IMG/VR virus record: IMGVR_UViG_3300032236_000718
Location: 1-64,000 of that record
Source: a virus
DNA: 64,000 nucleotides
Strand: one strand, 5' to 3'
The notes under the pieces are model-generated. The model saw only the letters and a program-made list of their open reading frames with translations. It was not told the DNA's origin and ran no database searches. Each line of letters starts with the position of its first letter. The first letter of the stretch is position 1. A program made the translations under genes and the position numbers. Positions 3,879 to 60,669 of this stretch are shown here, one piece after another.

Positions 3879-3900
3879 AGGAAGATAATGGAGGATGATT

Positions 3901-4323
3901 ATGACAAATGGATTTACCTGTAGTACATTTGACCTGCTTCATGCTGGTCATATTCTTATGCTAGAAGAAGCAAAACAACATTGTGACAAACTTATTGTAG
4001 GATTACAGACAGACCCCACAATAGATCGACCAGACACAAAGAATAAGCCCGTACAATCTATAGTAGAGAGGCAGATACAGCTAGAAGCTGTAGAATACGT
4101 AGACTATATTTTTATTTACGAGACAGAAAAGGATCTTATGGATCTACTAACGGTTCTAGATATTGATATCAGATTTGTCGGTGAAGAGTATAAGGACAAA
4201 GATTTTACAGGAAAACAGTACTGTATTGACAACGGGATAGAGATATTCTATAATTCCCGTAAACATAGGTTCTCTACAACCGAGTTAAGGAAGAGAGCTG
4301 GACTTCCCAAGACGGATATATAA
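3901..4323 (+). CDS. Cytidylyltransferase-like nucleotidyltransferase (TagD/HldE-C type)
   Basis: A 140-residue protein of the HIGH-superfamily nucleotidyltransferases. H-A-G-H is at residues 14-17 after the F-D-L-L motif, and the S-T-T-E-L-R-K-R motif is at 125-132. Relatives transfer CMP or AMP to glycerol-3-phosphate, FAD precursors or heptose-1-phosphate. I chose the ATG at 3901 over that at 3895 because GGAGG at 3890-3894 is correctly spaced only for 3901. The phage also encodes heptose-phosphate enzymes (39059, 40048), so activating a sugar phosphate is an attractive but unproven role. Confidence 0.8.
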   Translation: MTNGFTCSTFDLLHAGHILMLEEAKQHCDKLIVGLQTDPTIDRPDTKNKPVQSIVERQIQLEAVEYVDYIFIYETEKDLMDLLTVLDIDIRFVGEEYKDKDFTGKQYCIDNGIEIFYNSRKHRFSTTELRKRAGLPKTDI

Positions 4324-6412: not shown

Positions 6413-7057
6413 ATGAAGAAGACCCTATTGACTATCGCCGCTCTTGTTGCTGCGACATCTGCATATGCTACTGACCTTCCTAACAAGAAGAAGGCACCAC
6501 TTCCAACCCCAGTTGCCGCTGCTGAAGCTCCAGCTACCGCTGATAGCCTATCTGTTGCATACGGGCAAGATCTAGGTAACAACTTCGGATCTAAGGTCGA
6601 CGATGCCTATCAGATTACCTACAAGCACAATCTTGGCGGTGGTCTAAGTGTCGGCGGTATGGCACAGACAACCCAGGTTCCTGGTTCTCAGCTCAACCAG
6701 AACCTTGAAGCCCAGGTTGGTTATGCTCTTCCAGCATTTGCTGGTGTGGCTGTAAGCGGTAAGGTTGGTGTAGGTGAGAAGCTCACAACAGCCAATTTCC
6801 CTTACTATGCTTTGTATGGCAATGCAGATTATAAACTAACTGACAACATTACATGGAATGCTGTACAGTATCGTTATCGCTCGGCTGTCGACACGGCAGC
6901 CTATGGATATCAGAGTCACCAGCTTGGTACCGGTGTCACTTATGACATCAACTCCAAGTACAGTGTCAATGCCAAGATTGCTCGTAATTATGATACGACA
7001 ACCAGTATGAATGCTACCGGTGACGTATTCATGGTCGGTCTAGCAGTCAAGTTCTAA
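6413..7057 (+). CDS. Small outer-membrane beta-barrel protein (porin-like)
   Basis: 214 residues: signal peptide 1-19, then a Lys/Pro/Ala-rich linker like those after the signal in rhizobial Omp25/Omp31-type proteins, then about 160 residues of alternating strands ending in V-K-F. The size suits an 8- to 10-stranded barrel. AAGGAG precedes the ATG and a strong terminator follows at 7076. Codon use is regular and close to the surrounding phage genes. Probably inserted into the host outer membrane during infection. Confidence 0.75.
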   Translation: MKKTLLTIAALVAATSAYATDLPNKKKAPLPTPVAAAEAPATADSLSVAYGQDLGNNFGSKVDDAYQITYKHNLGGGLSVGGMAQTTQVPGSQLNQNLEAQVGYALPAFAGVAVSGKVGVGEKLTTANFPYYALYGNADYKLTDNITWNAVQYRYRSAVDTAAYGYQSHQLGTGVTYDINSKYSVNAKIARNYDTTTSMNATGDVFMVGLAVKF

Positions 7058-38051: not shown

Positions 38052-39059
38052 ATGACTGAACAATATAATGCTTTTGAAGAGAATGAAATTTCAAAGAACT
38101 CACAAGGCGGCACAGAGATCACTAAGCGATCAATTGCTGCCTTGGTTGATCCAGAGTTAGCCAGTAACTTCCAGGTTATTCCTGCACGAGTTCGTGAGCT
38201 ACAAGACGATAAGATCCGTGTATACTGGCTGCATGACTTGGCTGAAGATCCTGAGGCTAATCACTTACAGAATGCCAATAGCCGTGATCGCTTCCATAAG
38301 TTTGTGTTCTCGAGCAACTGGCAATACCAACAGTATGTCGATAAGCTTGGCTTTCCACAAACAGTAGATGCTATCGTACTTGAGACACCTATCGAACCAT
38401 TCGAGCGTGTAGAGAAGAGCAAGGATGAAGTGCGTCTTATCTATTTCTCAACACCACACCGTGGATTAGAGTTGTTAGTTCCTGTGTTTGAGGAACTCGC
38501 AAAGCATCACGATAACATTCATCTCGATGTTTTCTCTAGCTATAAGATCTATGGTTGGGAAGATGCAGATGAGAAGTACGAGGCACTATTCGATCGTATC
38601 CGCAATCATCCAAAGATGACTTATCATGGATTCCAGCCTAATGACGTATTGCGTGATGCTGTCAGCAAGGCACACGTCTTAGCATATCCATCTATTTGGG
38701 CTGAGACGAGCTGCCGCGTATTGATGGAGTCGATGAGTGCCGGTCTGTTGTGTGTGCATCCTAACTTCGGTGCATTGGCTGACACGTCTGGTGGACTGAC
38801 ATCAATGTATCCATATGACACTAATCCAAATACTCACGCCAATATCTTCTACGCACATCTCAATGAGGCAGTCAACATTGTCAACACTGAGAATGCGCAG
38901 AACTATCTTGGCTTTGTTAAGTCATACGCTGATGCACGATTCAATATTCAAAAGGTATCTAGCCAATGGAATGCAATGATGCAGGGTCTATTGAAGCAAT
39001 ACCCAGACGCAGAGTCTAGAGCATTGAAGAAGAAAGAGATGTTTAGGTATAAAGTCTAA
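38052..39059 (+). CDS. Glycosyltransferase, GT-B fold (GT4-like)
   Basis: 335 residues. The nucleotide-sugar-binding C-terminal motif Y-P-S-I-W-A-E-T-S-C-R-V-L-M-E-S-M-S-A-G (Glu-x7-Glu type) is typical of GT4 enzymes. The N-terminal domain contains V-Y-W-L-H-D. GAGGAT precedes the ATG. Its stop overlaps the heptose kinase start, and with the two following genes it forms a sugar module. The acceptor is unknown. Confidence 0.88.
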   Translation: MTEQYNAFEENEISKNSQGGTEITKRSIAALVDPELASNFQVIPARVRELQDDKIRVYWLHDLAEDPEANHLQNANSRDRFHKFVFSSNWQYQQYVDKLGFPQTVDAIVLETPIEPFERVEKSKDEVRLIYFSTPHRGLELLVPVFEELAKHHDNIHLDVFSSYKIYGWEDADEKYEALFDRIRNHPKMTYHGFQPNDVLRDAVSKAHVLAYPSIWAETSCRVLMESMSAGLLCVHPNFGALADTSGGLTSMYPYDTNPNTHANIFYAHLNEAVNIVNTENAQNYLGFVKSYADARFNIQKVSSQWNAMMQGLLKQYPDAESRALKKKEMFRYKV

Positions 39060-40051
39060 TGATTGTTACAAAGACTCCGTTAAGGATATCTTTCTTTGGA
39101 GGTGGAAGTGACATACCGCAGTACTACAACAAGTATCCGGGTATGGTCATCTCCACCTCTATTGATAAGAACATATACATCGCAGCCAATAAATGTCAGG
39201 CTAATCACTTCAAGATCATCTACTCACAGCTCGAGCTGACTAATCATAGGGTAGATATCAAGCATGATCGCATCAAGGCAATCATGGAATACTTTAATGT
39301 GTATGGCAATGTAGAGCTATGCAGCTTCTCTGATATTGACACAAGAGGTAGCGGACTCGGATCATCATCTACGTTTACTGTTGGTAGCCTACATGCTATG
39401 TTCGAGATGCTTGGCAAGAAGACTAATCGTCTTGAGTTAGCTGAGCTCGCGTCACATATCGAGATTAATATGTGCGGTGAGCCGATTGGTAAGCAGGACC
39501 AATATGCTGCAGCGTTTGGTGGTTTTAATGTGATTAGGTTCAACTCATCAGGAGTTGAGGTGAGACCTGTCTTTATTAAGCCATCTGTTGTTGAGGAGCT
39601 AAACGATAACTTATTGTGCTTCAACACTGGTGTCACAAGAGCAGCGTCTTCTGTGCTGAAAGAGCAGGTCAAGGGACTAGAGGGTGGCATTACGCAGAAC
39701 ACAACAATCAATCAGACATCCAGTCTTGTAGATATAGCTGAGGTAGCACTCAAGTATATAGAGAATGGACACTTAGATGACTTTGGTGCACTACTCGATA
39801 CATCATGGCGCATCAAGAAGAAGTTGGCTAAAAGCATATCAAATCCTATCATAGATATAATGTATGAGCAGGGAATGAGCTGCGGTGCACTAGGTGGCAA
39901 GCTGCTCGGTGCAGGAGGCGGTGGCTACATGCTGTTCTATATACCGAAGAGTAAACAGGCACAACTCAGAGAGACTATGGCTGAAGAGGGATATAAACAG
40001 ATGGACTTTAAGTTTACAGACAAGGGATCGACAGTGGAGCTATCAATATGA
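39059..40051 (+). CDS. hddA: GHMP kinase, heptose-7-phosphate kinase-like (HddA)
   Basis: 330 residues. P-L-R-I-S-F-F-G-G-G-S-D (N-terminal), G-S-G-L-G-S-S-S-T (ATP-binding GLGSSS), G-K-Q-D-Q-Y and G-G-K-L-L-G-A-G-G-G-G-Y are the GHMP motifs in the D-glycero-D-manno-heptose-7-phosphate kinase pattern. It phosphorylates the product of the isomerase encoded by the overlapping next gene. Confidence 0.9.
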   Translation: MIVTKTPLRISFFGGGSDIPQYYNKYPGMVISTSIDKNIYIAANKCQANHFKIIYSQLELTNHRVDIKHDRIKAIMEYFNVYGNVELCSFSDIDTRGSGLGSSSTFTVGSLHAMFEMLGKKTNRLELAELASHIEINMCGEPIGKQDQYAAAFGGFNVIRFNSSGVEVRPVFIKPSVVEELNDNLLCFNTGVTRAASSVLKEQVKGLEGGITQNTTINQTSSLVDIAEVALKYIENGHLDDFGALLDTSWRIKKKLAKSISNPIIDIMYEQGMSCGALGGKLLGAGGGGYMLFYIPKSKQAQLRETMAEEGYKQMDFKFTDKGSTVELSI

Positions 40052-40638
40052 TTTTAAGCAAATACATTCACTATCTTAATCAAGCATTAGACACTATCGA
40101 CCAAGGCGATCATGCCGGTATGGTCTTTCATCTAACACACGCTGCTCGCACAAATAAGCCAGTCTATGTGTTTGGTAACGGAGGATCAGCTTCGACAGCA
40201 GACCACTTCGCGTGTGACCACTCAAAGGGTGTTTTAACAGACACAGACTTTATTCCTAATGTTATCAGCTTGAGCTCGAACATGGCATTGTTCTCCGCTC
40301 TAGCTAATGATATCGGTTATGACAGTGTGTTTAGTCACCAGCTCAGACACTTTCCTCGTGATAATGGAATAGCCATCGGTATATCAGCCAGCGGCAACTC
40401 ACAGAACGTACTTAATGGATTAAATCAGGCAAGAGAGATGGGATTCACAACCATTGGTTTGGTTGGATTTGATGGCGGTAAGATGAAGAGCGATAAAATA
40501 TGTGATATGCTAATCCATGTTAAGTCGACAAACTATGGGATTGTTGAGGACTGCCACTCGATCATCATGCATACCACATCTCAGGAGATACGTACAAGCA
40601 ATCTTAAGGGTGACCCTGACCATATCCCCAAACTATAA
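40048..40638 (+). CDS. gmhA: Sedoheptulose-7-phosphate isomerase (GmhA-like)
   Basis: 196 residues, SIS domain: F-G-N-G-G-S-A-S-T-A-D-H-F-A-C-D and G-I-S-A-S-G-N-S-Q-N-V fit GmhA. It converts sedoheptulose-7-P to heptose-7-P, the first step to activated heptose. ATGA overlap with HddA. Stop codon coincides with a TATAAATA box. Confidence 0.92.
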   Translation: MILSKYIHYLNQALDTIDQGDHAGMVFHLTHAARTNKPVYVFGNGGSASTADHFACDHSKGVLTDTDFIPNVISLSSNMALFSALANDIGYDSVFSHQLRHFPRDNGIAIGISASGNSQNVLNGLNQAREMGFTTIGLVGFDGGKMKSDKICDMLIHVKSTNYGIVEDCHSIIMHTTSQEIRTSNLKGDPDHIPKL

Positions 40639-55230: not shown

Positions 55231-55464
55231 ATGCCTGTCACCTGCGACTACCTCGCAGTGCAGTGGGATAATACAACATGGGTACGGCACGAGATGTGCC
55301 AATTCGCCAAGAGACAAGACGGCGTTGACGGTGTCTATATAGGTGCACGCTTAGAGTTTAGACCTATACTGTCAATGGACCAGGGCAAGTGCGTGGACAT
55401 GGACAAGCAGACCCATGCTCGTTACAAGATAGGTGACGTGGAGTGGGTTTGCGTAGTTAGGTAA
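55231..55464 (+). CDS. Hypothetical protein, 77 aa
   Basis: Beta-rich protein with three Cys (C-D-Y-L, M-C-Q-F, K-C-V-D). A small hairpin precedes the ATG. Function unknown. Confidence 0.55.
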   Translation: MPVTCDYLAVQWDNTTWVRHEMCQFAKRQDGVDGVYIGARLEFRPILSMDQGKCVDMDKQTHARYKIGDVEWVCVVR

Positions 55465-55473
55465 GGTATATTA

Positions 55474-56643
55474 ATGGCGCTATACATAGACCCAGATAGG
55501 GTAAGAGAGATCTCCAAGAAACTAAAGACCGGTAAAGTGTACTCTATACAGTCGACCGATGTTGTAGAACACGCCTCCGCATATGCTGCATATAGGGAAG
55601 TCGGAGGACGCGTAATGGTATTGCCTCCACATCTTACGAACGAGTACAAACAATTTGTTCAGGAATATGTCGATGACGAGTCGCAGTACGGGACTAGTGG
55701 TGTTATCGTCATGACTTCCGGTACGACTGGAAACCCCAAGATAGTAATACACAACCTAGATTCTTTTCAAAGTTGTGATATCATGATCTCGGAGTGGGGA
55801 ATAGATGAGCACACTAATGTAATAGCTACTCCTCCACCATTCACCTCTTTTTTCTGGGCCTTAATGCATGCATCATACAACTTAAACGGTTGCTCTAGAG
55901 CTATTCACGCTACTAGAGATACATTAGTAGACATTGTTGAGGAGTCTAGAGGTAGTAAATTCATCATGTTAGCCTCTCCAGGATTATTAGACTTACTAGA
56001 GGCGTCTTCTACTCACATTGACTTCTCTGGTATGGAGAGGATGATGATGGGTGGAAGTAAGATGCTAGATAGACATGTAGACATTGCTTTTAGCAGAGGT
56101 GTCAACAAGATCGTATATCAATATGCTAGCACAGAGATTATTGGTGGCCTGTACAGCTATATCCATAAAGATACTCCCAGAGAGCACTATGAGACTCTGA
56201 GTGAATCCTCAATGGGTAAGACAATACGTATAGTAGATGGTCTTCTCATGGTAAAGGGTATTGGACTAGCCAAAAATCTTCATCTTGACGATCAGGGATA
56301 CTATAACACTGGAGATATGTTTAATGTCGAGAGTGATGGTCGATATAGGTTCTTGGGCCGTGTCGACGACATGATAAAGCTAAATGGACTAAAGTGCTTC
56401 CTTACTAAGATTGAGGAGGAGTGTGAGAGGATTGGTCTTATAAACACTCTCGCAGTACCGAGACAGAGGATGGGCGTAGAATATATAGAATTACAATATA
56501 CAGACTCTACTAGGACTATCGATATCCTCTCTCTAAAGAGGGAGTTAAAGGACCTGTTATTAGACCAAGAGATACCTCGAGCCTACACTAAGGTCGACAG
56601 CATTAAAAAGACTCCTCTCGGTAAGAAGATTAGGAGACTTTAA
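55474..56643 (+). CDS. Adenylate-forming (ANL superfamily) enzyme
   Basis: 389 residues. Core motifs in order: A3 M-T-S-G-T-T-G-N-P-K (80-89), A5 Y-A-S-T-E, A7 Y-N-T-G-D, A8 F-L-G-R-V-D-D-M-I-K-L-N-G and A10 K-T-P-L-G-K-K (catalytic Lys about 384). All catalytic residues for acyl-AMP formation are present. The N-terminal part before A3 is about 100 residues shorter than in acyl-CoA ligases, so substrate binding must differ. No carrier protein or CoA gene is adjacent. A rare activity for a phage; the substrate is unknown. Confidence 0.88.
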   Translation: MALYIDPDRVREISKKLKTGKVYSIQSTDVVEHASAYAAYREVGGRVMVLPPHLTNEYKQFVQEYVDDESQYGTSGVIVMTSGTTGNPKIVIHNLDSFQSCDIMISEWGIDEHTNVIATPPPFTSFFWALMHASYNLNGCSRAIHATRDTLVDIVEESRGSKFIMLASPGLLDLLEASSTHIDFSGMERMMMGGSKMLDRHVDIAFSRGVNKIVYQYASTEIIGGLYSYIHKDTPREHYETLSESSMGKTIRIVDGLLMVKGIGLAKNLHLDDQGYYNTGDMFNVESDGRYRFLGRVDDMIKLNGLKCFLTKIEEECERIGLINTLAVPRQRMGVEYIELQYTDSTRTIDILSLKRELKDLLLDQEIPRAYTKVDSIKKTPLGKKIRRL

Positions 56644-56651
56644 AATAGTTG

Positions 56652-56680
56652 TGTACAAAATCCCCATCTTGGTATAATAT
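56652..56680 (+). promoter_or_regulatory. Array promoter TGTACA-N17-TAATAT
   Basis: TATAAT with a 15-base spacer overlaps as an alternative -10. Drives the gene at 56707. Confidence 0.75.
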
Positions 56681-56706
56681 CAAAATATAACCAAGGAGAC
56701 ACACAC

Positions 56707-57813
56707 ATGGTCAGAGGCGTAAATCTAAAGGGTAAGCCCAAGCAGAAGGTAGCTCGTAAGACAAAGTCCGAGCAGTACCTCGTTAACTTCAAGTATCTAG
56801 GCGACGAGCCAGACTCCAACTTCAAGACAGTGTCCGATCAGATCCGTGCCTTTAACTGGTACAACGCCATGTGTGAGATGGATGAGGCACGCGCGTATCT
56901 TAACGACTACCTGACAATCACGAACCGTACAGACCTATCCAAGAAACTGGATAAGGTCCCAGACTCGTTCTTCCCTACCACAGCCGCGTGGATGGCACGT
57001 ATCGCGCAGCGCAAGAAGTCCTCCATCGAGCCGCACGAGTATGACAAGTTCATGGGCCTAATCGAGACCTCTATCTCTCACGTCAAGGAAGAGAAGGCAG
57101 AGACTAAGAAGGTCGACAAGCCAAACATTCAGGATCGTATTCGCGAGCGTGGTTACGACATCATCGGCGACATCGAGGAGATGATTGATAAGGGAGAGGC
57201 ATTCTCGCTATATGAGTGGCTCAAGAAAAATGAGATCCCTGCTATGTACGCTACAAAGATTGGCGACTACTATGGCGCTGTCTGGAAAGAGATCGTCGAT
57301 GCCCAGTCAGGAACTATCGACGGCTACGAGAAGTGGACAAAGGCTCAGCTCAAGGCACGAGTAGCTTTCTACCTACAACTCATCGACGACGCTGAGCGAT
57401 ATGGCGACAACACTAAGAAGACACGAGCACCTCGTAAGAAGAAAGCTCCGACTACAGAGAAGCTGCTCAAGAACTTCAAATATCAGAAAGAGAGCAATGA
57501 GCATAAGCTTACATCTATTAATCCGGAGTCTATCATTGGTGCAAAGACTCTTTGGACTTTTAATACGAGGTATAGCACTCTTAGTGTTTATAATGCTATG
57601 GGTCCCAGTGGTCTCAGTGTTCGCGGCACTACCCTTACTAATTTTGATGAGTCAAGTTCTAAGGCTATTCAAATAGGTCGTAAGACACAAGAGCGCATCG
57701 AGACTGTACTGAAAGGTGGCAAGATCGTAGTCAAGCGTCTCATTGAGGAGATGAAGAATGACGTTAATGGTCGCATCAATGAGAATACTATTCTATTAAA
57801 GGTGATCAAATGA
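56707..57813 (+). CDS. Conserved T4-like phage protein
   Basis: 368 residues, Lys-rich. The C-terminal L-W-T-F-N-T-R-Y...L-S-V-R-G-T-T-L and K-x-R-K-T-Q-E-R-I motifs match a large uncharacterised family in T4-like marine phages. Codons shift to A/T-ending at about 57480-57680. Overlaps the next gene. Function unknown. Confidence 0.75.
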   Translation: MVRGVNLKGKPKQKVARKTKSEQYLVNFKYLGDEPDSNFKTVSDQIRAFNWYNAMCEMDEARAYLNDYLTITNRTDLSKKLDKVPDSFFPTTAAWMARIAQRKKSSIEPHEYDKFMGLIETSISHVKEEKAETKKVDKPNIQDRIRERGYDIIGDIEEMIDKGEAFSLYEWLKKNEIPAMYATKIGDYYGAVWKEIVDAQSGTIDGYEKWTKAQLKARVAFYLQLIDDAERYGDNTKKTRAPRKKKAPTTEKLLKNFKYQKESNEHKLTSINPESIIGAKTLWTFNTRYSTLSVYNAMGPSGLSVRGTTLTNFDESSSKAIQIGRKTQERIETVLKGGKIVVKRLIEEMKNDVNGRINENTILLKVIK

Positions 57814-58244
57814 AGATACTAAATGAGTGTAGCTTTATCAAGCCAGAGAACATCGCTAAGATTGAGGAGCAATATAAGGCTACGTACGTGTTCGAGACGT
57901 GCCTGCGTGCACGTGAGGGCGGGTGGGCAAACTTCCCTGCAGCGGTCTTCTATCAAGAAGAGATTTATCCTGGTGGTTCGAACTACTTTGCCCTGTATTA
58001 CGACATGGATGGTAAACTATACATCACTGACGCCGGTCCCTCTATCATCGATGAGGAGTTTACAGGCCTAGAGGCTGAGGGCGAGGTAGTATACTCTCGC
58101 TATAGACACGACTATCGTGCAGGAAAGAATGGAGCATATGTAGACGGTGGACGAGATTATTTTAAGTATGGGGGCGATTCTTTTGATGATTACAATATTG
58201 TCAAGTTTAAAGTGGTAGACGATCACCTTGAAATTGTAAAATAA
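57810..58244 (+). CDS. Hypothetical protein, 144 aa
   Basis: Aromatic, beta-rich protein (N-Y-F-A-L-Y-Y-D...L-Y-I-T-D-A). ATGA overlap with the previous gene. No recognised family. Confidence 0.6.
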   Translation: MKILNECSFIKPENIAKIEEQYKATYVFETCLRAREGGWANFPAAVFYQEEIYPGGSNYFALYYDMDGKLYITDAGPSIIDEEFTGLEAEGEVVYSRYRHDYRAGKNGAYVDGGRDYFKYGGDSFDDYNIVKFKVVDDHLEIVK

Positions 58245-58247
58245 GTG

Positions 58248-58276
58248 TGTACAAAATATCACACTGTGTGTTATAA
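58248..58276 (+). promoter_or_regulatory. Sigma70-like promoter TGTACA-N17-TTATAA before tmRNA
   Basis: Canonical -35; the -10 (TTATAA or TATAAA) overlaps a late TATAAATA box at 58272. Confidence 0.6.
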
Positions 58277-58279
58277 ATA
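58272..58279 (+). promoter_or_regulatory. T4-type late promoter box TATAAATA before tmRNA
   Basis: A perfect octamer; predicted transcription start near 58285 coincides with the expected 5' end of the acceptor RNA. Confidence 0.55.
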
Positions 58280-58284
58280 ATATA

Positions 58285-58600
58285 TGCTGTTGTTGATGAC
58301 GAAAGCAGAATAGACATACTGGACGCGGGGGCGGTACCCGCCCGGTCCACCATGGATACACAAACACCCTGCGAGATTGTTGCTTTAGGGTAGGGTGACA
58401 AGAAATAGAACAGCAACTAATACTTGTTTTATTTGTGTATCTTTGATGGGCCGGAAATTAGGATCGACAGGTGTGTTAAAAGCGGACCGAGACAGAAGCA
58501 TAAATAAGTTATCTGCAAACGATAATTCACCTATTGAAATGCGCCTAGCGGCATAATTTCTTGGGTTGGCAACTTACCTCGAAACAGAAAAGTTGCACTT
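58285..58600 (+). ncRNA. ssrA: tmRNA, circularly permuted two-piece
   Basis: The acceptor RNA (to 58352) ends in acceptor strand CCGGTCC, A73 and CCA. The coding RNA starts at 58448 with GGGCCGG, which pairs with it and includes G3-U70, the Ala identity pair. AGGATCGACAGG follows as in alphaproteobacterial tmRNA; GTGTGTT pairs with GACATAC (helix P2). The resume codon is GCA at 58515 and the tag reads A-N-D-N-S-P-I-E-M-R-L-A-A-stop (to 58556). A GCAACTT/AAGTTGC stem closes the 3' end (58569-58596). The T-loop is aberrant (GGCGGTA). tmRNA rescues stalled ribosomes with SmpB, presumably from the host. Confidence 0.93.
58355..58441 (+). other. Intervening segment of the permuted tmRNA
   Basis: The segment between the two tmRNA halves is closed by a perfect 10-bp helix, GATACACAAA (58355-58364) with TTTGTGTATC (58432-58441). 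It would hold the precursor together for processing; the middle should be removed. Confidence 0.75.
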
Positions 58601-58629
58601 CACACAAACAACAAACACAGGAGACTACA

Positions 58630-58845
58630 ATGACAAAAACACCTTTTGAGATTCGTTTTGATCTTCTCAACTATGCGATGAGCCAGCTAACTGGCGAGTA
58701 TTATGCAGCCTTGGAGCGCATACGAGAGTCAACACAAGAAAATTCACCAGCTCGAAACGATGCGGTAAATCAATTAAAATATCCTACTAAGAGTGACATC
58801 ATCCTTTTAGCAGAGGATTTAAAAGCCTTCATTGACAAAAAGTAA
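58630..58845 (+). CDS. Hypothetical protein, 71 aa
   Basis: Helical small protein (I-R-F-D-L-L-N-Y-A-M). GGAGACTACA lies before the ATG, as in the array genes. Adjacent to the tmRNA and one base before tRNA-Arg. Function unknown. Confidence 0.6.
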   Translation: MTKTPFEIRFDLLNYAMSQLTGEYYAALERIRESTQENSPARNDAVNQLKYPTKSDIILLAEDLKAFIDKK

Positions 58846-58939: not shown

Positions 58940-59110
58940 ATGAATGACTTGAGTAACTACTCCGTCGATGTCTTAAAGAAGACATGCTTTCAAGATGAGT
59001 TGTCAAGCTTAAGAGTTAAGTACCCAGAACCCGATAATTTAACACGCATCATTATGGATTACCTTGATCAGCGCATCAAGGAGATCGACAAAAAATATAA
59101 GATAAAGTGA
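58940..59110 (+). CDS. Hypothetical protein, 56 aa
   Basis: A small, charged helical frame starting 16 bases after tRNA-Arg, with GGAG at 58928. Its stop lies just before the carbamoyltransferase ribosome site. No recognised motif. Confidence 0.55.
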   Translation: MNDLSNYSVDVLKKTCFQDELSSLRVKYPEPDNLTRIIMDYLDQRIKEIDKKYKIK

Positions 59111-59121
59111 AAGGATACCTT

Positions 59122-60669
59122 ATGAAGTTCTTGAGCATTCGCGATGGACATGACTGCAATATCTCCTACTCTGATGGCAAGACCGTAAGGTACATCAAGT
59201 TCGAGCGCAACTATCAGAAGAAGCACTACAACTGGGGCCACGAGGAAGGCGACCAGATGGAGTTCTTACTTAAAGAAGCTCAGCGTATCTGGGGTATCGA
59301 CTTCCGCGATCTCAACGGCATCGCTCTAGTAAACGACAACGCTCATCATAAGCTCGATCGCGACATCGCTCTCAATGAGATGTATTACGTTATCGACAAA
59401 GAGAAGAACCCATTCTGGGCACAGTTCAACTGTCAAGTCTTTAAGATCGATCACCACTACGCACACATGATGAGTTGCTGGCCACTTGTAAATGTACAAG
59501 ACGTGCGCACTCACTTTGTCGTCGACGGTCTAGGTGACCATGCTCGTAACACCGCAGTGTTCCAAGATAACGATCTTGTCGACTTCATCGATCGCTCTCA
59601 GAACCTTGGCATCTCTGTCATTCTCGAGCACATCGGTCAAAACTATGGCATGAAGGGAATGGTTCTCGACATCTCTGGTAAGGTTATGGCTCTCAAGTCG
59701 TATCATCAGGTTCCGGACCAATTAGCATTCGACGCTATGAACCTTGCTAAGTATCTTGGCCTTCGTAACCTCAACCACTTCATTGAGATCTCTAAGCAGC
59801 TTCAAGGATATATTGATCCACTACCGAGCGAGCAACAGCAGCTAGTCAACCTAGCTTATCTCTTGCACGTGTTTGGTGAGGAGAAGATGCCACAGTACTT
59901 CCGTCAGTTCGCTAAGCGCGATGAGGTCATTACGTATTCTGGTGGCACTGCACAGAACACTGTCATCAACACAAAGATCAAGGAAGCTTTCCCTAACTCT
60001 CATATTCCTCCTCACTGCTACGATGGTGGTCTGTCGCTTGGCGGTGTTGAGTTCCTTCGCCAACTATTTCAACAGGATCTATTTGATAACTCTAACTTCC
60101 CTTACTGGCAGTCAGATGAGGCTCCTGCCTCTACTCCATCTGCTGCTACTATCGATAAAACTGCTGAGCTTCTAGCTCAGGGTAAGATCGTTGGTTGGTA
60201 TCAGGGCAATGGTGAGATTGGCCCTCGCGCACTCGGTAATCGCTCGATCTTGATGGATCCATCTATTAAGGATGGTAAAGACATCATCAATACAAAAGTA
60301 AAGAAGCGTGAACCATATCGACCTTTCGGAGCATCTGTTCTCGCGAAATATGCTGGACAACACTTCGATGTCGACTATGAGTCTCCCTACATGCTCCACG
60401 TAGTCAATTGCCTCACCGATGACTTCCCTTCAATTCAACATGTTGACAAGACCTGCCGTATCCAGACAGTCAATGAGGATTCACAGTACTCTGTCTATCA
60501 TTCCATCATCGATAAGTTCCGCGAGAAGACTGGCATTCCTATGCTACTCAATACGAGCTTGAACGTTGATGGTAAGCCTATTGCTGGCTACATGGAAGAT
60601 GCTAAGACCTTGTTTAATGACTCTGACCTAGATGCAGTAGTCATTGGTGACGATATTATGGTTAAATAA
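59122..60669 (+). CDS. Carbamoyltransferase (NodU/CmcH/TobZ family)
   Basis: 515 residues. The N-terminal Kae1-like domain has D-H-H-Y-A-H-M-M (metal His) and V-D-G-L-G-D-H. The C-terminal domain has G-E-I-G-P-R-A-L-G-N-R-S-I-L-M-D-P and P-Y-R-P-F-G. The family carbamoylates sugars or antibiotics from carbamoyl phosphate via carbamoyl-AMP. AAAGGA seven bases upstream supports 59122. In rhizobia NodU modifies Nod factors; here a phage, virion or LPS sugar is the likelier target. Confidence 0.92.
   Translation: MKFLSIRDGHDCNISYSDGKTVRYIKFERNYQKKHYNWGHEEGDQMEFLLKEAQRIWGIDFRDLNGIALVNDNAHHKLDRDIALNEMYYVIDKEKNPFWAQFNCQVFKIDHHYAHMMSCWPLVNVQDVRTHFVVDGLGDHARNTAVFQDNDLVDFIDRSQNLGISVILEHIGQNYGMKGMVLDISGKVMALKSYHQVPDQLAFDAMNLAKYLGLRNLNHFIEISKQLQGYIDPLPSEQQQLVNLAYLLHVFGEEKMPQYFRQFAKRDEVITYSGGTAQNTVINTKIKEAFPNSHIPPHCYDGGLSLGGVEFLRQLFQQDLFDNSNFPYWQSDEAPASTPSAATIDKTAELLAQGKIVGWYQGNGEIGPRALGNRSILMDPSIKDGKDIINTKVKKREPYRPFGASVLAKYAGQHFDVDYESPYMLHVVNCLTDDFPSIQHVDKTCRIQTVNEDSQYSVYHSIIDKFREKTGIPMLLNTSLNVDGKPIAGYMEDAKTLFNDSDLDAVVIGDDIMVK

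Follow-up and report, generated by a model that had tools for sequence, protein, structure and literature searches.

The gene at positions 55474 to 56643 (+ strand) of our window, which is the whole 64,000-nucleotide stretch analysed (positions 1 to 64,000 of IMG/VR record IMGVR_UViG_3300032236_000718), encodes a compact adenylate-forming (ANL) enzyme of 389 aa. We propose, with the case about evenly balanced, that it is a catalytically competent member of a clade known so far only from T4-like phages, which probably converts an acid other than an α-amino acid to an acyl-AMP and passes the acyl group to a thiol or amine for acyl tailoring. The gene itself is genuine: it starts with an ATG 7 nt downstream of a Shine-Dalgarno-like sequence, AGGTAAGG (55459 to 55466, + strand), which overlaps the end of the upstream gene, and it is the only PF00501 gene in the phage record. 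Its product scored 44.5 bits against Pfam AMP-binding (cut-off 29.9 bits). An earlier note on this DNA had reported motifs A3, A5, A7, A8, and A10 in order together with the C-terminal Lys, and this proved correct. On the + strand we find the A3 P-loop TSGTTGNPK (residues 81 to 89; 55714 to 55740), A5 YASTE (residues 217 to 221; 56122 to 56136), A7 YNTGD (residues 277 to 281; 56302 to 56316), the A8 hinge FLGRVDDMIKLNG (residues 293 to 305; 56350 to 56388), and A10 TPLGKK (residues 380 to 385; 56611 to 56628), whose catalytic Lys384, in alignment with other ANLs, falls on their GK. The protein thus has the sequence and structural features that define the ANL superfamily, namely a P-loop of the form TSGTTGxPK, A5, A7, and A8 in order, the A10 lysine, and a two-part fold. 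As phmmer gave 53 matching PDB sequences and the structural model aligned over 379 residues to MenE (5gtd), we concluded that the ANL identity lies far beyond chance. The Pfam score, the motifs, the model, and conservation within the clade all uphold the earlier description of the gene as one for a complete adenylate-forming enzyme carried by a phage.

The AlphaFold model, made with the clade alignment as input, had a pLDDT of 79.7 and contained the entire ANL fold. VIA-align placed model residues 1 to 389 on MenE residues 22 to 476 with a Z of 31.7 and an rmsd of 3.1; DltA (Z 28.9) and McbA (Z 28.2) followed, and MatB was also among the nearest folds. The phage protein is indeed shorter than the MenE chain (389 aa versus 484 residues), and to that extent the earlier statement that about 100 N-terminal residues are missing was right; however, since the model aligns from residue 1 and spans MenE 22 to 476, the shortening is better viewed as compaction of loops and of much of the region preceding A3, giving a compacted N-terminal subdomain with no whole N-terminal domain lost. 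In the profile search against ANL subfamilies that the earlier note had suggested, the protein reached no curated NCBIfam cut-off among the subfamilies listed here. The best score was for the long-chain fatty-acid CoA ligase subfamily of acyl-CoA synthetases (NF004837; 75 versus a 476-bit cut-off), and the scores for the MenE family (TIGR01923; 51 versus 330 bits) and the DltA family (NF003417; 55 versus 476 bits) were also far too low, so that the enzyme is not assignable to acyl-CoA synthetase, MenE, or DltA. MenE (o-succinylbenzoate-CoA ligase; 5gtd, 5bus) shares the whole fold and all core motifs with the phage enzyme, but the two are only 17% identical, and no menaquinone gene was recognised near the phage gene. 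DltA (D-alanine-carrier protein ligase; 7vhv) resembles it in a further respect: in the A8 region, where aligned bacterial CoA ligases show GGEN..P.E, the phage enzyme has KLNGLK and DltA also lacks the CoA-ligase pattern. The phage record, in contrast, has no detected carrier protein.

The A4 stretch of the phage enzyme (residues 114 to 134) contains no Asp or Glu, whereas the NRPS-like L123 has FDMS there. With no acidic residue in this stretch to anchor an α-amino group, the acid is probably not an α-amino acid. The features of an NRPS adenylation domain were not found, as the A4 Asp is absent and a PF00550 search for carrier proteins gave no match in the phage record, which may be incomplete; the earlier observation that no CoA or carrier-protein gene is adjacent is supported as well.

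Relatives of the enzyme surfaced in profile scans only; searching viral and genome contigs with the protein sequence alone yielded none. Profile scanning of 2.9 million viral contigs (IMG/VR) gave nine loci, six of them distinct, which belong to the same compact clade (E 4e-41 or better) and are 30–33% identical to the phage ANL across its full length; after these there was an E-value gap down to generic ANLs at E 1e-12, and a rescan with the clade profile recovered the identical nine loci. With the clade profile, 84,980 bacterial and archaeal species gave generic ANLs only (best E 4e-12), and the plasmid and isolate-phage collections gave no clade member. As judged by sequence searches of these collections at the sensitivity used, the clade appears so far to be phage-only. 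The sole isolate-phage match, MT835484.1 (L002), is labelled bacteriophage but carries ileS, glmU/glmM-like, and other bacterial housekeeping genes, and we therefore regard it as bacterial DNA. A quick tree built from 92 ANLs, in which branches were long, placed the phage ANL and its nine relatives (L014 to L022) on one side of a branch with an SH-aLRT of 99 and no bacterial member; the ANL of this phage (G000) was the outermost and most divergent of the clade, with an end branch of 1.49. The key residues of A3, A5, A8, and A10, including K384, are invariant across the clade, and A7 retains T279 and D281. The earlier note had named a degenerate catalytic Lys or ATP-binding motif in all relatives as evidence against its reading; no such degeneration was found. 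The ANLs of L019 and L021 are 74% identical with a dN of 0.18 and saturated dS, which demonstrates strong purifying selection. A literature search, with incomplete journal coverage, found no report of this clade.

The survey of phage homologues and their neighbours, also suggested earlier, revealed a setting of GNAT-like and radical-SAM genes. In the clade relatives the ANL gene lies within islands that have 5–9 radical-SAM genes per record and also hold class-III aminotransferase and methyltransferase-like genes, and a GNAT-like gene begins inside or beside the ANL stop codon. An adjacent GNAT is common in the clade, not universal, being absent from L017 and L018. When viral contigs were scanned independently for the GNAT-like gene, seven loci were found on seven contigs, and an ANL gene of this clade was immediately upstream in all seven. 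The GNAT fold of this linked acyltransferase was assigned by Foldseek from a model of low confidence (pLDDT 54.7). A homologue of it (hhalign 96.6%) occurs two genes behind the ANL of another phage lineage, one with a flavin halogenase and a ketosynthase; for an acyltransferase-sized gene of a third group (L062, L077, and L090), comparison did not establish homology to the ANL-linked GNAT. The presence of ANL and acyltransferase together in radical-SAM islands suggests a virus-encoded tailoring pathway. Radical-SAM cassettes are also reported from pelagimyophages, where they occupy a hypervariable host-recognition region and have no known function (PMC7029224). Those phages, like the clade relatives with ANL in such an island, are T4-like; on the other hand, the passages on those cassettes mention no ANL gene, and no radical SAM was detected in the present phage. 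Note that a DUF2061-like membrane protein gene lies near ANL in two lineages (L086:10415-10834 and L019:8899-9318, with a Pfam match for L019 only).

The arrangement typical of the clade, a GNAT downstream of ANL within a radical-SAM island, does not occur in this phage, in which no radical SAM, GNAT homologue, or carrier protein was detected. Here the ANL gene forms a single-gene cassette (55453 to 56640, + strand) that is missing from the sibling contig L230/L179 (about 92% nucleotide identity) and from L229. In L230/L179 the flanks, equivalent to window positions 55231 to 55452 and 56641 to 58756 (about 92–95% identity), are only 4 nt apart. Because the sibling has the same neighbours joined without the ANL, we concluded that this stretch of the genome is variable and that the ANL gene alone makes up the cassette. 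The 77-aa gene upstream (55231 to 55464, + strand) and the phage gene phrog_11903 downstream (56707 to 57813, + strand) are kept in siblings without ANL and represent cassette flanks, not partners. A NodU/NolO-like carbamoyltransferase gene (window 59107 to 60669) was considered as a partner and set aside: it is kept by the sibling without ANL, and PF16861 is absent from the seven related records fetched (mostly fragments), so that a partnership is not likely. Scavenging of host fatty acids released by the phage lipase at 5010, as the earlier note had suggested, gained no support, since the lipase gene lies on the opposite strand at a distance of 50 kb and the fetched loci of relatives (partial contigs) contain no lipase homologue. 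A role for the ANL in defence was also considered, and PADLOC gave no match.

We strongly infer that the phage ANL carries out adenylation, and we infer its activity, acid, acceptor, and biological role to be as follows. The enzyme would bind ATP and a carboxylic acid, probably no standard α-amino acid, and form the acyl-adenylate from the two; the C-terminal domain would then turn about the A8 hinge, and the acyl group would be transferred to a thiol, on CoA or a host carrier protein, or straight to an amine. In the relatives the GNAT-like acyltransferase would be the next enzyme, within the radical-SAM island. This linkage is the reason for proposing an acyl-tailoring pathway, and the clade would most likely feed the tailoring of a small molecule or surface glycan that is produced in the course of infection. 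In the present phage the gene would be a solitary, horizontally acquired cassette, whose acceptor would have to be supplied by the host or by some phage gene that has escaped recognition. Transfer to some acceptor, which the earlier note had raised, may occur, as amide-forming Cfl is the PDB sequence nearest to the clade profile and in the relatives the ANL is coupled to an acyltransferase of GNAT fold. ANL enzymes control entry into fatty-acid, nonribosomal peptide, and aryl-acid chemistry. If a compact clade of them is indeed restricted to phages and has a linked acyltransferase of its own, phages would run dedicated acyl chemistry in place of borrowed host steps. Such a clade would also provide biochemistry with a minimal ANL scaffold of about 390 aa, and a defined entry step would make the radical-SAM cassettes of aquatic T4-like phages, which are so far unexplained, open to testing.

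Several other functions could be imagined for such an enzyme. McbA functions without a carrier, and a Cfl- or McbA-like amide-bond synthetase, joining the adenylated acid to an amine (amino acid, polyamine, amino sugar, or protein) without CoA or carrier, would agree with a record in which no carrier protein was detected. Cfl coronafacate ligase (7a9j) was the top match when the clade profile was compared with PDB sequences (E 8e-24, profile positions 76 to 390), and the McbA fold (6sq8) trails the best one by no more than 3.5 Z units. Generic ANL similarity could, however, yield an identical ranking; Cfl is a 537-aa protein, McbA is 18% identical to the phage enzyme and has no context in common with it, and a linked GNAT, as in the relatives, normally implies a thioester donor. 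We therefore consider this function rather doubtful. An acyl-CoA synthetase that makes acyl-CoA from a host or environmental acid for ordinary metabolism, as an auxiliary metabolic gene with no phage-specific product, seems to us a little less probable still. The CoA ligases MenE and MatB are among the nearest folds and a long-chain fatty-acid CoA ligase subfamily gave the top NCBIfam score, but that score is far under the cut-off, as are all the others, the A8 region departs from that of the aligned bacterial CoA ligases, and the relatives are linked to GNAT and radical SAM, not to β-oxidation genes.

An acyl-ACP synthetase that loads a host acyl carrier protein would have a parallel in another phage lineage, where the start of a compact ANL gene is overlapped or directly adjoined by an ACP gene in L023, L024, L030, L031, L033, L038, and L078 (with a Pfam match in L033) and the ANLs appear to act in this manner. 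These ACP-linked enzymes are nevertheless a different lineage, and ACP was not detected in the present phage record; we regard this function as unlikely. Finally, the insertion of a single gene missing in siblings, with a GC content of 42% versus 45–53% in its neighbours, would fit a recently acquired passenger without a role, or an assembly artefact. This explanation we find quite improbable, in view of the homologues in six other distinct phage loci, the strong purifying selection, the retained catalytic residues, the intact reading frame with its Shine-Dalgarno-like site, and the continuous phage sequence on both flanks. Our preferred reading remains that of a competent phage enzyme for acyl tailoring.

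Three further groups of phage ANLs suggest that acyl activation recurs among such phages. Members of the second group (454–469 aa) occur with halogenase and GNAT genes and with a ketosynthase or desaturase gene: in L025:9581-15195, L040:9617-14420, and L067:9617-14932, an ANL of 454–467 aa precedes a tryptophan-halogenase family gene and a GNAT homologue, accompanied by a ketosynthase (L025 and L040) or a desaturase (L067). Records labelled as Listeria and Staphylococcus "phage" also gave matches of this group; these appear to be contaminating bacterial DNA and were set aside. In the third group, a tryptophan-halogenase family gene, a compact ANL of about 330 aa (330–333 aa), an unclassified 195–197-aa gene, and a fatty-acid desaturase gene form a cassette (L062:6573-10540 and L077:8329-12259) that adjoins T4 replication genes; the adjoining genes are sliding-clamp and clamp-loader-like. 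The fourth group (317–368 aa) occurs with an acyl carrier protein, a DegT-type gene, and a hexapeptide transferase, the ACP gene directly preceding the ANL in L033:9667-10915 and L030:9595-10903, within a DegT/hexapeptide transferase/SDR/glycosyltransferase cluster. Phage flavin halogenases have been reviewed (PMC10452541); tryptophan-halogenase family genes lie beside some of these other ANL lineages, but not in the clade of the present ANL. Isolate phages with such halogenases are known, and the isolate-phage search gave no ANL of these lineages. Tentatively, and with less confidence than for the enzyme itself, we suggest that T4-like phages may own acyl-activation systems, in which several compact phage-specific ANL lineages with differing partner sets (GNAT and radical SAM; flavin halogenase and ketosynthase or desaturase; ACP and sugar genes) would together make acylated natural products or glycans, encoded by the virus, in the course of infection, the present gene being a mobile one-gene module.

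The phage record, a virus contig of 164,428 bases that was analysed as far as position 164000, has T4-like genes, among them one for a gp32-like protein. Its terminase is closest to those of Sinorhizobium phages phiN3 and phiM12 (57%). The record contains a permuted tmRNA of the alphaproteobacterial type (RF01849; window 58249 to 58647), with several tRNA genes close by, and on the basis of this tmRNA the host is probably an alphaproteobacterium. Elsewhere in the window (38052 to 40638 and 3895 to 4323) are genes for a glycosyltransferase, a GHMP kinase, and a SIS-domain isomerase and a cytidylyltransferase-like gene, possibly a sugar-nucleotide pathway. A small secreted protein encoded at window positions 6413 to 7057 resembles an alphaproteobacterial outer-membrane β-barrel, and an outer-membrane protein gene lies directly upstream of ANL in clade relatives (L021:9327-9977).
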